A stretch of DNA of 39,621 nucleotides, from positions 1-39,621 of the forward strand of contig JAJRUL010000158.1 of assembly GCA_024277795.1 (NCBI GenBank), in the 5' to 3' direction. Positions 14,239-20,663 of this stretch are shown here, one piece after another (the stretch's first letter is position 1; each line of letters begins with the position of its first letter). Source of the DNA: Candidatus Zixiibacteriota bacterium. GTDB taxonomy: Bacteria; Zixibacteria; MSB-5A5; GN15; FEB-12. Below the pieces are notes generated by a model. It had not been told where the DNA came from. It worked only from the letters and a program-made list of their open reading frames with translations, and ran no database searches. A program made the translations under genes and the position numbers.

Positions 14239-15135
14239 ATGGTGATATTGATTTCGGATGCTTTTGATGACCAGCTCAATGAAACGCTCAAAGCGTTTGG
14301 AGAGGTGACTACCGATAAGAGCCGTCAGTCAGAAGCTGAGATTATTCTTATTCGCAGTAAAACGAAGGTTACTCGCGAGTATATTGATGCCTCTCCGAAT
14401 CTGAGGATGGTAATTCGAGGAGGAGTCGGGCTCGATAATGTTGATCAAGTGTATGCTTCTGAAAAGGGGATTATTGTAAAAAATACTGCAGAAGCCTCAA
14501 CAACAGCTGTTGCTGAATTGGCCTTTGCACTTATGATAGCTCTGCCGAATCATATTGCCCGTGCTGATCTTTCTATGAAAGAGGGGAAGTGGCTTAAAAA
14601 AGAACTGAAGAGGACTGAGTTATTTGGCAAAACGCTCGGGATTCTTGGCTTAGGTAGAATCGGGTTGGGAATGGCTCTTCGGGCCAGAGCGTTTTTTATG
14701 AATGTCGTGGGTTGGAACCCTCACATTCAAGGTTCTGAATTTGTAGAACTCTGCCCGACACTTGAAAATATGCTCAACAGGTCTGACTATGTTTCGATAC
14801 ATCTTCCATTGCAGGAGTCAACCAAAGGGATAATTAACAAAGAAACACTCAAGTCCTTCAAGCATGGTGCTTACCTGATCAATACTGGTCGTGGCGGTTG
14901 TATCGTTGAAGATGATGTTGTTGAAGCTCTCAAAAGCGGACAGTTGGCAGGTTATGCTACTGATGTTTGGAATACTGACCCTCCCGAGAATTCACCTTTG
15001 ATCAATGCTCCAAACTGCATATTTACTCCTCACATTGGTGCCTCTACAAAAGAGAATATGGGGCGGATCGGGAAAATTGTAGAACGACTAATAGGTAATT
15101 ATATAAACGAAATGCAAGAAAAGCCTGTATCTTGA
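14239..15135 (+). CDS. serA: D-3-phosphoglycerate dehydrogenase (short type)
   Basis: The 298-residue NAD-dependent 2-hydroxyacid dehydrogenase carries the dinucleotide loop GILGLGRIGLGMALRAR (about 134-150). Also present are the conserved HLPLQESTKGIINKE segment, NTGRGGCIVEDDV, and the catalytic His in FTPHIGAST (about H265). It lacks the C-terminal ACT/ASB regulatory domains of long SerA, so it would not be inhibited by serine through ACT. Its place between DUF1015 and serC argues that it oxidises 3-phosphoglycerate in serine synthesis rather than another hydroxyacid. The downstream gene starts 27 bases after the stop, with a GTGAGGGAAG ribosome site. Confidence 0.88.
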   Translation: MVILISDAFDDQLNETLKAFGEVTTDKSRQSEAEIILIRSKTKVTREYIDASPNLRMVIRGGVGLDNVDQVYASEKGIIVKNTAEASTTAVAELAFALMIALPNHIARADLSMKEGKWLKKELKRTELFGKTLGILGLGRIGLGMALRARAFFMNVVGWNPHIQGSEFVELCPTLENMLNRSDYVSIHLPLQESTKGIINKETLKSFKHGAYLINTGRGGCIVEDDVVEALKSGQLAGYATDVWNTDPPENSPLINAPNCIFTPHIGASTKENMGRIGKIVERLIGNYINEMQEKPVS

Positions 15136-15162: not shown

Positions 15163-16248
15163 ATGTCTAAGAGAGTATGTAACTTTAATGCAGGGCCGAC
15201 GGGGATTCCTCTTGCAGTATTGAAAACCATTCAAGAAGAATTGCTCGACTATCGCGGTTCAGGAATGTCGATTATTGAAAGCTCACATCGTGCGGTAGAG
15301 TATGATGAAGTTAATGAAACAGCTATTTTATTGACGAAAGAGATATTTGGTCTAAATGACGACTATCATGTTTTGTTCATGACAGGTGGGGCCTCATCAC
15401 AGTTTGCATTCATCCCCCTCAATTTCCTTGCAGAGGGAAAGAGAGGCGTGTATATCGACACAGGGACGTGGTCAAGTAAAGCAATCAAAGAAGCAAAGAT
15501 CATTGGAGAAGCTCATGTTGCATATAGTGGCAAAGAGTCTGACTATTCACACATCCCTGGAGATGATGAATTGGATATTCCGTCTGATGCTACTTATCTG
15601 CATTATACATCAAATAATACAATCAAAGGTACCCAGTTTCATCGTCTGCCAGATTCAAAAGGATTACCATTGATATGCGATATGTCATCTGATATTGCCT
15701 CTCGAAAGCTCGACTTTACAAAGTTTTCGATGATTTATGCAGGTGCTCAGAAGAATATCGGACCTGCAGGGATGACTTTGGTTATTATGCACAAAGATAT
15801 GCTTGAGAAAGCAAATGATGATTTGCCGACAATGTTTAAGTATAAAACACATGCGGATTCAAAATCTCTCTATAACACACCTCCCGTTTTTGGTGTTTAT
15901 GTCTATAAGTTAGTTCTTGAGTGGATCAAGAGTCTTGGAGGTTTGGAAGGGATCGAAAAGATTAATATAGCCAAGAAAGAACGCATCTACCAGTTGATGG
16001 ACCTCTATCCTGATTACTATCGGGGCACAGCGGAATCGGAGAGCCGTTCATGGATGAATATCACAATGCGTTTGCCAAATGAAGAACTTGAAAAGAAGTT
16101 GATTAGTGAGGCTAAAACAGCAGGTTTTGTCGGGTTGAAAGGTCACCGCTCAGTTGGTGGTATCCGTGTTTCAACGTACAATGCGGTCAGTTTAGAGGCT
16201 GTTGAAAAACTAGCTGGGTTTTTGGAGGACTTTAAGAAGAACAACTAA
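15163..16248 (+). CDS. serC: Phosphoserine aminotransferase SerC
   Basis: The 361-residue PLP enzyme is of fold type I and converts 3-phosphohydroxypyruvate with glutamate to phosphoserine. It opens with the family motif NFNAGPTGIP. The GGASSQFAFIP loop binds PLP phosphate, and the Schiff-base lysine is K197 in YAGAQKNIGPAGM. HRSVGGIRVSTYNAV near the C-terminus is also typical. Length is normal. It is the third gene of the DUF1015-serA-serC operon. A weak hairpin (ACAGGGAG/CTCTCTGT) follows the stop. No serB phosphatase is present in the window. Confidence 0.96.
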   Translation: MSKRVCNFNAGPTGIPLAVLKTIQEELLDYRGSGMSIIESSHRAVEYDEVNETAILLTKEIFGLNDDYHVLFMTGGASSQFAFIPLNFLAEGKRGVYIDTGTWSSKAIKEAKIIGEAHVAYSGKESDYSHIPGDDELDIPSDATYLHYTSNNTIKGTQFHRLPDSKGLPLICDMSSDIASRKLDFTKFSMIYAGAQKNIGPAGMTLVIMHKDMLEKANDDLPTMFKYKTHADSKSLYNTPPVFGVYVYKLVLEWIKSLGGLEGIEKINIAKKERIYQLMDLYPDYYRGTAESESRSWMNITMRLPNEELEKKLISEAKTAGFVGLKGHRSVGGIRVSTYNAVSLEAVEKLAGFLEDFKKNN

Positions 16249-16249
16249 C

Positions 16250-16275
16250 ACAGGGAGTATACTCTCTCTGTTATT
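16250..16275 (+). terminator. Weak hairpin after serC
   Basis: ACAGGGAG pairs with CTCTCTGT (one G-U) around a six-base loop immediately after the stop codon. Only TATTGTATT follows, so termination may be leaky. Confidence 0.4.
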
Positions 16276-16599: not shown

Positions 16600-16645
16600 C
16601 TAGGCGTTGTCCACAGTACAATTATTACTCTAATAAGGAGCTGGT

Positions 16646-17869
16646 TTGCAGCCCGAGCGTAAGACTGATCTCGATTTTCCTGATATTTTAGATAAGTGTC
16701 GTGCCTATACTGACCCTCAGAAGGTCCAGGCATTAGGAGTATACCCATATTTCCATCCCGTACAATCATCACCGGGTGATGAAGTTATTGTCGATGGCCA
16801 AAAGTGTATTATGGCTGGTTCAAATAATTATCTTGGGTTGGTCAATCATCCAAAGGTAAAAGAGGCCGCCGCAGAGGCGGTCAGGAAGTTTGGATCGGGG
16901 TGTACTGGTTCACGATTTCTCAACGGCACACTAGATCTTCATCTTGAGCTTGAAGATCGACTGGCGAAATTTATGAAGCGTCCCGCTGCTCAGGTTTTTT
17001 CAACGGGATTTCAAACAAATCTTGGGACTATCTCATCATTGGCTGCTAAAAGTGATGCGATTATTCTTGATCGACAAGATCACGCCTGTATAGTTGACGG
17101 GGCACGGCTTTCCTACGCGAAAGTATATAAGTTTTTGCATAACGATATGGATGACCTGAGAAAAGTGATCAGTCGGGTTAGAAATATCGTTAGTGGTGGT
17201 ATATTGATCATAGTTGACGGTGTCTTCTCGATGGAAGGGGATATTACCAATCTGCCGGAGCTTGTGAAAATAGCTGAAGAATATGGTGCACAAATCATGG
17301 TTGATGATGCACACTCGGTCGGCGTATTGGGAGAACATGGCGCTGGTACAGCGGAACACTTTGGTCTGATTGACAAAGTTGCAATAACAAGTGGAACATT
17401 TTCGAAGTCATTTGCTTCTTTAGGGGGATTCATTGTTGGCGAGAAGGAAGTTATAAATTTCGTTAAACATAAAGCACGAGCATTGATTTTCTCAGCATCA
17501 ATTCCGCCATCAAACGCCGCGGCTGTGATTGCCGCTCTTGATATTATTGAAGCTGAACCGGAACGAAGAGAAAGACTCTGGGAAAATGCTAGGAGAATGC
17601 AGAAGGAATTTCGTGACTTAGGATTTGATATCGGTCATACTGCTACTCCGATAATACCTATTGTTGTAGGTGATGACATGGACGCTTTTGTTTTCTGGAA
17701 AGCATTGTTTGAGAATGGTGTATTTACAAACCCTGTGATATCTCCTGCTGTTCCACCTGGAAAGGCTATGATACGTACATCGTTTACAGCGACTCATACC
17801 GATGAGCAACTTGACAGGATTGTTGAGGCTGTGGCTCGTGTCGGTAAGCAAAGAGGATTAATATCATAA
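16646..17869 (+). CDS. spt: Serine palmitoyltransferase-like alpha-oxoamine synthase
   Basis: This 407-residue PLP enzyme belongs to the KBL/AONS/SPT family. Signature segments are GSNNYLGL, GSGCTGSRFLNGTLDLHLELE, DRQDHACIVDGARLS (PLP-stacking His), VDDAHSVGVLGEHGAG and the Schiff-base lysine K254 in TSGTFSKSFASLGGF. The GVYPYF start, FSMEGDITNLPELV and the FTATHTDEQLD end match my recollection of Bacteroidetes serine palmitoyltransferases better than KBL or BioF. The reaction would join serine and an acyl-CoA to 3-ketosphinganine. The start is TTG with AAGGAG six bases upstream. A GNAT acyltransferase gene begins six bases after the stop, and serine biosynthesis genes lie upstream. KBL remains the alternative. 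Confidence 0.8.
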   Translation: MQPERKTDLDFPDILDKCRAYTDPQKVQALGVYPYFHPVQSSPGDEVIVDGQKCIMAGSNNYLGLVNHPKVKEAAAEAVRKFGSGCTGSRFLNGTLDLHLELEDRLAKFMKRPAAQVFSTGFQTNLGTISSLAAKSDAIILDRQDHACIVDGARLSYAKVYKFLHNDMDDLRKVISRVRNIVSGGILIIVDGVFSMEGDITNLPELVKIAEEYGAQIMVDDAHSVGVLGEHGAGTAEHFGLIDKVAITSGTFSKSFASLGGFIVGEKEVINFVKHKARALIFSASIPPSNAAAVIAALDIIEAEPERRERLWENARRMQKEFRDLGFDIGHTATPIIPIVVGDDMDAFVFWKALFENGVFTNPVISPAVPPGKAMIRTSFTATHTDEQLDRIVEAVARVGKQRGLIS

Positions 17870-17875
17870 AGGCCT

Positions 17876-19021
17876 ATGTCTACAGTTGAAATTATCGAGG
17901 TTGAATCTTCCTCGCAACAGAAAAAGTTCATTGAATACCCGAATCGACTTTATCGGGATGATCCGAACTACGTTGTTCCATTAGTTTCGGAACGTGTAGA
18001 GTTTCTTGACAAGAAAAAAAATCCTTTTTACCGCTCATCACGAACAAAACTATTTTTGGCAATGCGCGGGCGTGAGGTGGTCGGTAGAGTTGCCACTTGT
18101 GTCAACTTTACACACAATGAATGCCATAATGAAAAGGCAGGATTCTTCGGGTTCTTTGATTGTGAAGATGATTTTGAAGTAGCTTCAAAGCTTCTGAAGG
18201 TAGCGATGATCACTCTGAAGAAGGAGGGGATGGAGATTATGCGGGGGCCGATGAGCTTCTCCACCAATCATGAGTGTGGCTTTCTTGTTGAAGGTTTTGA
18301 TTCGCCACCTGTTGTGATGATGACATACAACAAACCGTATTTACCGAAATTGGCTGAAAGGTTCGGGTTGAAGAAAACAATGGACCTTCTCGCTTATAAA
18401 ATAACAGAAAACGATCAGATCCCTGAACGCATCCAACGAGTAGTCAGCAAAGTTGCGAAACGTAGTAATATTACGTTACGGACTATGAATATGAAAGATT
18501 TTGACAATGAAGTGATGCGGATCAACACTATTTATAATGAAGCATGGGAACACAACTGGGGTTTTGTGCCGATGTCTGAAGATGAGTTTGCACATACTGC
18601 AAAAAACTTAAAGCAAATTGTCGATCCTGATCTTGTTTTTATTGCTGAACATGAAGGAAAACCTGTTGCATTCCTGCTTGCGCTACCGGACATAAATCAG
18701 GCTTTGATTCATCTTAACGGCTATCTTTTCCCAACAGGATTGTTAAAGCTTCTTTGGCATACAAAAGTGAGTAACAAGATCGATGGTTTGCGTATTATCA
18801 CAATGGGGGTTGTGCCGAAATTCCAAAAACGCGGAATAGATTCTCTTATGTATATGGAGGTATTCAACCGCGGTTTGGAAAAAGGGTATAAGTGGGCTGA
18901 AATCTCTTGGGTGTTAGAAAGCAATGAACTTATGCGGGCTATGGCAGAGCAGATTGGGGCCAAGATATATAAACGGTACAGAATTGTTGAAATGCCACTT
19001 GGGAAAAGTGTTGAGACGTAA
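17876..19021 (+). CDS. GNAT-fold acyltransferase, bacterial ceramide synthase-like
   Basis: The protein has 381 residues. It belongs to a family with an N-terminal half containing DDPNYVVPL, KNPFYRSSRTKLFLA, GFFGFFDCEDD and GPMSFSTNHECGFLVEGFDSPPV. The C-terminal half has a GNAT acyl-CoA site (MGVVPKFQKRGIDSLMYME, where the Q/R-x-x-G/A loop is QKRGI) and ends in a fold-completing YKRYRIVEMPL. Proteins of this type are encoded with serine palmitoyltransferase in sphingolipid-making bacteria. The Caulobacter bacterial ceramide synthase is, from memory, a member of the same superfamily. It would N-acylate the long-chain base. It is translationally close to spt upstream and to a lipoprotein downstream. 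Assignment to ceramide synthesis is by context and resemblance. Confidence 0.65.
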   Translation: MSTVEIIEVESSSQQKKFIEYPNRLYRDDPNYVVPLVSERVEFLDKKKNPFYRSSRTKLFLAMRGREVVGRVATCVNFTHNECHNEKAGFFGFFDCEDDFEVASKLLKVAMITLKKEGMEIMRGPMSFSTNHECGFLVEGFDSPPVVMMTYNKPYLPKLAERFGLKKTMDLLAYKITENDQIPERIQRVVSKVAKRSNITLRTMNMKDFDNEVMRINTIYNEAWEHNWGFVPMSEDEFAHTAKNLKQIVDPDLVFIAEHEGKPVAFLLALPDINQALIHLNGYLFPTGLLKLLWHTKVSNKIDGLRIITMGVVPKFQKRGIDSLMYMEVFNRGLEKGYKWAEISWVLESNELMRAMAEQIGAKIYKRYRIVEMPLGKSVET

Positions 19022-19023
19022 AG

Positions 19024-19584
19024 ATGTCCTTTCGATTTTATAATTCACTAAATACGTCTGTTCTATTTGCTCTTGCGATTATACTCCTGACGATGGTTGG
19101 TTGTACCAGTCGTTATCGTATGAATTTATTTGTTTATAATAATGAGGGGCAATCAAAGGTTAAGGTTACAAACACGCAATACTATCCCGGGAGCCTGCTT
19201 GGTGATGCGTTTACTGATGCGAAAATAGTTAGTGGTGACGGTTCGGTTGCTGTTATCACAACAGGCTTCAGAGGGAAGAAGATCGATGGAGTTGAAAAAT
19301 TCGGGTTAGGGCTTGATGAATATAACAAATATCGCCTATTTCTTGAGTTTGATGATGTCCCAAAACCAACAAGTTTTGAGCTTGCTGGGAGATCATTTAT
19401 TCAATTGATGGAAAAGTATAATCTTGCGGTAGAAGATAAGATTTTCAAACCTATCTCAGGTGCTTGTGTGATCGACTCGTTGCATGGAAACAAAGTGTTT
19501 TGTACTATAGATGGTGCTTATGATAATCACAAAGGGGAGGTTATTACGATGAAAGGACGTTTCAAATTCAAAATCTCTTGGTAA
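19024..19584 (+). CDS. Small lipoprotein in the spt operon, unknown function
   Basis: The 186-residue product has a hydrophobic signal and the lipobox TMVGC (Cys at about residue 27). The mature domain of about 160 residues is probably a beta-rich periplasmic domain. It is not recognised. It starts two bases after the stop of the GNAT gene, so it is almost surely cotranslated with it and may handle the product lipid or act in the envelope. Its 3' end overlaps the convergent macro-domain gene by 17 bp, so neither gene has a terminator of its own here. Confidence 0.7.
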   Translation: MSFRFYNSLNTSVLFALAIILLTMVGCTSRYRMNLFVYNNEGQSKVKVTNTQYYPGSLLGDAFTDAKIVSGDGSVAVITTGFRGKKIDGVEKFGLGLDEYNKYRLFLEFDDVPKPTSFELAGRSFIQLMEKYNLAVEDKIFKPISGACVIDSLHGNKVFCTIDGAYDNHKGEVITMKGRFKFKISW

Positions 19585-20089
19585 GTGCTCTTTGGAGAGC
19601 TTCATTGAAAAGCACTTCACCCATTCGATCAAAAACACGGAATTGAATTCGCTGTAAATTGTTAGCCATCTCATTATATCCAAAAACAGTATTCATCATT
19701 AATCGAGCACAAGCAGGCATTGGAAACCCTCCAACACCCGTACCAAAGGCAGGGAAGGCCAAAGATGTCAATTTCAATTTTTCTGCAAGATTCAAAGAAG
19801 ATACAGTTGCTTGCCTAATATATTTGTCTGTCGTTCGTAGGTCTTGACCCATAACTGCGGCGTGAATCACGTAGTGGTATGGTAATTTTCCTGCAGTAGT
19901 TGCGATTGCCTCTCCCGGCATGACAATCCCATTTTTCATCGCCTCATCTTCAATAATTGCTCCGCCTGCTTCTTTTATCGCTCCTGCCACTCCCGATCCC
20001 ATCCAAAACTTATTGTTCGCGGCATTGACAATCGCATCGGTGTCTGCTTTTGTAATATCTCCTAGTACTACTTCAATATTGAGTGACAC
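19568..20089 (-). CDS. Macro domain protein (ADP-ribose/O-acetyl-ADP-ribose hydrolase type)
   Basis: The protein has about 173 residues. The macro fold is shown by VVLGDITKADTDAIVNAANN, GSGVAGAIKEAGG, GEAIATTAGKLPYHYVIHAAV and FPAFGTGVGGFPMPACARLM, close to the MacroD/YmdB-type active site. Such enzymes remove or bind ADP-ribose. The GTG start at 20089 is preferred because GGGAG lies six bases before it. An in-frame ATG at 20107 has no ribosome site and would overlap the PAP2 gene more deeply. It is the last gene of the five-gene minus-strand operon and ends inside the convergent lipoprotein gene. Confidence 0.9.
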   Translation of the reverse strand: MSLNIEVVLGDITKADTDAIVNAANNKFWMGSGVAGAIKEAGGAIIEDEAMKNGIVMPGEAIATTAGKLPYHYVIHAAVMGQDLRTTDKYIRQATVSSLNLAEKLKLTSLAFPAFGTGVGGFPMPACARLMMNTVFGYNEMANNLQRIQFRVFDRMGEVLFNEALQRALTKRF

Positions 20090-20090
20090 A

Positions 20091-20663
20091 TTACTCTCCC
20101 ATTTCATTTGGAGTGTTTATAGTTACTTCGGGACGCAGTTGCAAAAACAAACGAGCAACAATCCAACCGATTACTCCTCCGAGTATTGAGCCAACTATAA
20201 CATCAAGTGGATAGTGCACACCAACAAATACACGGCTTATGGCAATTAATGTTGCCAATGGCAACAACCATATCTTAGTTCGAGGGATTGTTACCGCAAA
20301 CAATATCGCTTGTGCAAAAGCATTGGCCGAGTGTGAGGATGGCATCGACCAGCCCGCACCGCAATTGACAAGCAAGTTAATGTGTGACAAGGTATGACAT
20401 GGACGAGGTCGTTCAATTAAAGGCTTAAGAAGGTGGGAAGATATTTGGTCGGCGAGAAGAAGGGCGAACAATGACGTAAGTACAAGCCATTTTGTACGCT
20501 TCGAACCAAAAATAAGTAGTGAAAACATACTCAAAGCATAAGCAATTCGAAGAAGCATATCAGATGTAACGATCGGCATTATGAAATCGGTTACAACATT
20601 ACTTATGGTCATGTTGATAAACATAAAGAACCAAAGGTCACATGATTGTAGAGCTTCAAGCAT
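20091..20663 (-). CDS. PAP2-family membrane phosphatase
   Basis: The 190-residue protein has about five membrane helices. The three phosphatidic acid phosphatase motifs are intact: KPLIERPRP (about 80-88), PSSHSANAFA (about 108-117) and SRVFVGVHYPLDV (about 144-156). Family members dephosphorylate lipid phosphates such as phosphatidate or undecaprenyl diphosphate at the membrane surface. The ATG overlaps the end of the pfkB-type gene by eight bases, and the stop abuts the macro-gene GTG. Both point to coupled translation. The substrate is not determinable; a sphingoid-phosphate substrate is conceivable given the nearby spt genes, but that is speculation. Confidence 0.92.
   Translation of the reverse strand: MLEALQSCDLWFFMFINMTISNVVTDFIMPIVTSDMLLRIAYALSMFSLLIFGSKRTKWLVLTSLFALLLADQISSHLLKPLIERPRPCHTLSHINLLVNCGAGWSMPSSHSANAFAQAILFAVTIPRTKIWLLPLATLIAISRVFVGVHYPLDVIVGSILGGVIGWIVARLFLQLRPEVTINTPNEMGE

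Follow-up and report, generated by a model that had tools for sequence, protein, structure and literature searches.

Bacterial sphingolipids have long been considered rare. In Caulobacter and the Rhodobacteria, the ceramide genes comprise spt (CC_1162), cerR (CC_1164) and cerS, also termed bCerS (CC_1154), together with acpR and aasR (PMC11087976, PMC11324152), and the proteobacterial cerS is reported never to share an operon with spt and cerR (PMC11324152). In metagenome-assembled genomes from the Black Sea, Spt-like proteins have been described in 38 bacterial phyla, with co-located bCerS or CerR genes in many uncultivated phyla, a pairing resembling the one described herein (PMC11334938); the main text of that report does not mention Zixibacteria by name. 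In the present study, a stretch of 39,621 nucleotides from Candidatus Zixiibacteriota bacterium (assembly GCA_024277795.1, contig JAJRUL010000158.1), hereafter the window, was analysed together with the rest of its genome and with related genomes. It is highly probable that the genes of this Zixibacterium encode the central steps of bacterial ceramide (sphingolipid) biosynthesis, with the same three predicted core activities as in Caulobacter and the Rhodobacteria, namely Spt, a GNAT-type CerS and a CerR of the extended short-chain dehydrogenase type (PMC11087976, PMC11324152). The best reading of the results is a pathway of a known kind, in which the gene layout and a few accessory candidates are unusual.

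Three open reading frames on the forward strand, found at the positions and with the spacing given in a preliminary description of this DNA, form the putative operon. They encode an Spt-like alpha-oxoamine synthase (16646..17869, 407 aa, TTG start), a bCerS-like tandem-GNAT N-acyltransferase (17876..19021, 381 aa) and a lipoprotein (19024..19584, 186 aa, lipobox Cys27), and they are separated by only 6 bp and 2 bp, respectively. An RBS-like AAGGAG, read from the sequence, lies on the same strand at 16635..16640, 5 bases upstream of the TTG. Outside the operon, a serA-like (phosphoglycerate dehydrogenase-like) gene (14239-15135) and a serC-like (phosphoserine aminotransferase) gene (15163-16248) precede it on the same strand. 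A terminator-like hairpin after serC (16250..16271, forward strand, from a consensus scan only) and the gap of about 0.4 kb between serC and the synthase gene suggest that the Spt operon begins anew at the synthase. On the opposite strand, a macro-domain-like gene (recognised by eye) and a PAP2 phosphatase gene (19568-20663) run convergently with the operon and overlap the end of the lipoprotein gene by 17 bp. These neighbours are kept in many relatives and form a convergent unit that is probably unrelated.

First, the synthase was assigned to Spt, in agreement with the SPT-like features noted in the preliminary description. The best NCBIfam model was SerpalmtaseCFB (550 bits), followed by a BioF/Kbl-related model (420 bits), and with 550 bits the enzyme falls short of the 640 bits set as the curated threshold for NF047600, the Bacteroidetes Spt equivalog, so that it is not placed in this narrower group. 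The best PDB match was the Spt of Sphingobacterium multivorum (437 bits), and by score the Bacteroidetes-type Spt (S. multivorum 8guh and the Bacteroides BT_0870 orthologues) is the closest characterised synthase. In a maximum-likelihood tree of 45 rows, from which HemA was left out, the synthase falls inside a 29-row clade (support 100/99) with the crystallised Spts of S. multivorum (8guh) and Sphingomonas wittichii (2x8u) and with orthologues of Bacteroides, Parabacteroides and Prevotella, and E. coli KBL, BioF and their kin fall outside it. By motif and spacing, the Spt catalytic residues N60, H146, D220, H223, K254 (the PLP lysine) and R377 are present. Clade and residues thus support an Spt, which would form 3-ketosphinganine.

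Three other functions were weighed for this enzyme. A genome-wide search found no second alpha-oxoamine synthase in the window's own genome. This agrees with the Spt assignment, but it also makes a housekeeping role imaginable, in which the enzyme would serve as KBL (glycine C-acetyltransferase) or BioF beside an unrelated GNAT acyltransferase. However, KBL and BioF lie outside the Spt clade, their models score far lower (336-399 bits for KBL and 389 for BioF, with ALAS at 257), a further alpha-oxoamine synthase accompanies Spt in many relatives, and the pairing with the GNAT gene described below is nearly constant, all of which leaves this explanation very little room. A sulfonolipid pathway, known from Alistipes as a parallel pathway with its own alpha-oxoamine synthase, would require a SulA-type cysteate acyltransferase, with the GNAT protein N-acylating capnine. 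The fold and enzyme superfamily are common to both, and the cysteate C-fatty acyltransferase in the PDB is a relative (270 bits), but the Spt match is far better. Moreover, the essential Lys281 of SulA, proposed to discriminate it from Spt (PMC9304779), corresponds to alanine here, as in Spt (Ala284, thirty residues past the PLP lysine), which largely refutes this pathway and makes it very improbable. The third alternative is an enzyme that takes a different amino acid, such as alanine, glycine or lysine, followed by the same GNAT and CerR steps and yielding 1-deoxyceramide-like or lysine-ceramide-like lipids. The similarity to characterised Spts is only moderate, and according to the Black Sea report Spt can accept alanine, and environmental Spt-like proteins have been hypothesised to use other amino acids (PMC11334938). 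Against this stand the Spt-type catalytic residues and the serine-synthesis genes directly upstream in most near relatives: the sequence ahead of Spt was long enough in 19 near-kin loci, of which 14 have serC there and 13 also have a phosphoglycerate dehydrogenase gene. This neighbourhood agrees with L-serine as the presumed substrate, and the use of a different amino acid is considered unlikely, if less so than the two preceding functions.

Second, the GNAT protein is supported as a bCerS-like enzyme that would N-acylate the long-chain base. It matches Pfam Acetyltransf_1 and is homologous over its full length to the N-acetyltransferase of the Sphingomonas parapaucimobilis sphingolipid cluster (34.6% identity over 93%, E 5e-57), which is used herein as a stand-in for Caulobacter CC_1154, so that the assignment to bCerS is based on homologues from such clusters. 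The order of the Sphingomonas cluster is cerR-acpR-spt ... lptF-lptG ... N-acetyltransferase, and the numbering of Caulobacter cerS beside lptG2/lptF2 (CC_1155, CC_1156) agrees with this layout (PMC11324152). Using tblastn against plasmid records, the GNAT family was located within spt clusters of S. parapaucimobilis, Roseomonas and Klebsiella. Compact Spt-GNAT-dehydrogenase operons with the same family were found in Rubrobacter, Streptomyces, Hyalangium and Nitrospinae, and spt-linked members also occur in named genomes of Planctomycetota, Myxococcota, Nitrospinota and Actinomycetota. The AlphaFold2 model (pLDDT 90.8) was matched by Foldseek to tandem GNATs, with E values down to 1.9e-14, and no relative was found among PDB sequences. 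No NCBIfam model for bCerS or CerR matched any cluster protein scanned, and thus family scans could not settle the identity of either the GNAT protein or CerR. The likeness to ceramide synthases proposed in the preliminary description is borne out by this homology to proteobacterial sphingolipid-cluster enzymes and by co-conservation with Spt.

The association of the two genes was examined across the phylum. Among 133 Zixibacteriota genomes, synthase matches, a few of them weak, were observed in 129 and GNAT matches in 126. Within the window's order, the two genes stand next to each other in the same direction in 70 of 71 genomes, which speaks against a chance arrangement; in the sister orders, this applies to 31 of the 45 genomes carrying both, and to 38 of the 45 when gaps of up to 3 kb are allowed. 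In two sister-order genomes (G116, locus L193:4988-5653, and G115, locus L196), a different lipoprotein-like protein of 221 aa, with no Pfam match, is encoded between spt and the GNAT gene.

Other arrangements of the GNAT family were also encountered. In Cloacimonadota, two to three tandem copies occur with no spt nearby (L093:7646-11128, L098:8911-11116, L103:8891-11946); in the first of these genomes Spt lies on a different contig, and the Black Sea report found no bCerS or CerR within 10 ORFs of spt in this phylum (PMC11334938). A second, conserved cluster of four genes was observed in two Zixibacteria that belong to different families (G033 contig 146, L223:1490-8018; G072 contig 43, L224:3242-9746). 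It encodes a bCerS-family GNAT, a B12-binding radical SAM protein, a fusion of about 950 aa that joins a B12-radical-SAM domain to an alpha-oxoamine synthase, and a FemAB/GNAT-like protein. This cluster looks like a candidate aminolipid pathway in which a methylation step would depend on cobalamin.

Third, a candidate for the missing reductase was located. The preliminary description correctly stated that no ketosphinganine reductase is adjacent to this operon and left the reductase open; a CerR-like gene is now found elsewhere in this genome (contig 46; G000:C46:8684-9646). With the third gene of the Rubrobacter operon as the query, the encoded dehydrogenase matched over its full length at 3.5e-42, compared with 2e-8 for the next dehydrogenase of this genome, and it belongs to the extended short-chain dehydrogenases of the NAD-dependent epimerase family (Pfam Epimerase, 6.9e-36). 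In the sister orders, a cerR homologue (30-44% identity) divergently adjoins spt at a distance of 102-276 bp in 37 of the 42 genomes carrying both; in the window's order, cerR is adjacent to spt in none of 62 genomes. In the CerR tree, from which four rows of long-branched dehydrogenases were removed after a first tree was blurred, the CerR set is split from five other dehydrogenases of the window's own genome with a support of only 94/95 and with long branches, and the neighbourhood evidence for CerR is stronger than its placement in the tree.

Downstream of cerR on contig 46 lie genes for a 142-aa membrane protein and then for a class-V aminotransferase-like PLP enzyme. This arrangement recurs at each of 10 loci from the window's order, and at most spt-linked loci of the sister orders cerR is likewise followed by the PLP enzyme gene. 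The class-V PLP enzyme and a membrane protein of about 140 aa are thus partners of both the moved and the spt-linked cerR copies (L113:7078-9697 on the window genome's own contig 46, L213-L222 and L194-L211). The simplest history is an ancestral locus in which the genes for the PLP enzyme, the membrane protein and cerR stood divergently to spt and cerS, and which was split in the window's order. In one genome that is 97% complete (G051 contig 48, L212), the CerR operon is present, and Spt, the GNAT protein and the lipoprotein were not found, with a weak alpha-oxoamine synthase match only. This case tells against the CerR assignment: the dehydrogenase may serve a different function, unless the assembly has a gap.

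Fourth, the lipoprotein is a plausible new pathway player by its gene position, as the preliminary description had suggested. It carries a lipobox-like ...TMVGC27, and 28 relatives align over the full length, with a nearly invariant lipobox cysteine and a conserved C-terminal G...DS...G motif. The AlphaFold2 model (pLDDT 92.8) is all-beta with long strands. No significant match to the lipoprotein was found in Pfam, PDB sequences, or the Foldseek PDB or viral libraries; weak hot-dog, lipocalin-like and TbpB-like fold matches were rejected as noise, with query TM-scores of at most about 0.3. The lipoprotein profile matched 64 of 81 genomes of the window's order and nothing outside it. In 53 of these genomes, from four families, the lipoprotein gene immediately follows the GNAT gene, at a median gap of 52 bp. 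One genome has a second copy (G083:C1:581007-581721), ahead of which 36 aa of the GNAT C-terminus survive, a trace of a partial operon duplication.

The distribution of the lipoprotein gene leaves a substantial chance, somewhat short of even, that its product stands outside the pathway and that the gene is merely riding behind the GNAT gene in one order. The profile search did not find it in any of the sister orders, despite their Spt, GNAT and CerR; it lies elsewhere in 11 of the 64 genomes and is missing from some genomes carrying Spt and GNAT; and it evolves rapidly (30-42% identity among near kin). On the other hand, the position behind the GNAT gene recurs at short distance across the four families, and the lipoprotein was not found in G051 or G044, two genomes of the window's order in which the searches also gave no GNAT gene and no good Spt match. 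The predicted lipid anchor and the gene position together suggest a role in lipid binding or transport.

Herein, we propose a ceramide pathway for this organism, whose activities, serine substrate, step order and lipoprotein role we infer from the computed homology, clade, catalytic residues, operon conservation and reductase locus. First, the Spt-like enzyme would condense L-serine with a fatty acyl thioester to give 3-ketosphinganine. The bCerS-like GNAT enzyme from the same operon would then attach a second fatty acid to the amine, and the CerR-like extended short-chain dehydrogenase encoded on contig 46 would reduce the keto group, either before or after N-acylation. The lipoprotein probably acts in the periplasm or at the outer membrane, where it would bind, transport or anchor the completed lipid. 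To our knowledge, no lipid from any Zixibacterium has been described. A wider version of this pathway, in which the gene set extends beyond Spt, CerS and CerR to a lipid-carrying or lipid-anchoring all-beta lipoprotein and a CerR-linked PLP enzyme and membrane protein that tailor the amine or the head group, is rather doubtful at present; if true, such an extended sphingolipid gene set is not described for other bacteria.

The arrangement differs from those of the known systems in several respects. In contrast to Caulobacter and the Rhodobacteria, cerS lies inside the spt operon and cerR lies apart, and it is this layout, together with the lipoprotein and PLP-enzyme candidates, that is unusual here. 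The dedicated AcpR and AasR next to spt of the Rhodobacteria-type cluster had no counterpart here: no homologue of either was found in 60 named loci, from Zixibacteria and others, that contain a GNAT-family gene. In Bacteroides, the synthase and a GNAT homologue are encoded at separate loci with other neighbours, whereas they are paired in the window. The spt-cerS-cerR operons of Rubrobacter, Streptomyces, Hyalangium and Nitrospinae come closer, with Spt followed by the same GNAT family as in the window, but their third gene is cerR and that of the window encodes the lipoprotein. Neither the lipoprotein nor a relocation of cerR is described in the available part of the Black Sea report (PMC11334938).

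The near-universal Spt-CerS pair across an uncultivated phylum, together with the located reductase, makes ceramide production by Zixibacteria testable by heterologous expression. Whether reduction or N-acylation comes first is debated, and the relocation of cerR inside the phylum offers a natural contrast for this question. Moreover, the later steps of bacterial sphingolipid synthesis are poorly known, and the lipoprotein, the class-V PLP enzyme and the small membrane protein are candidates for these later steps, for transport and for the head-group chemistry of bacterial sphingolipids.
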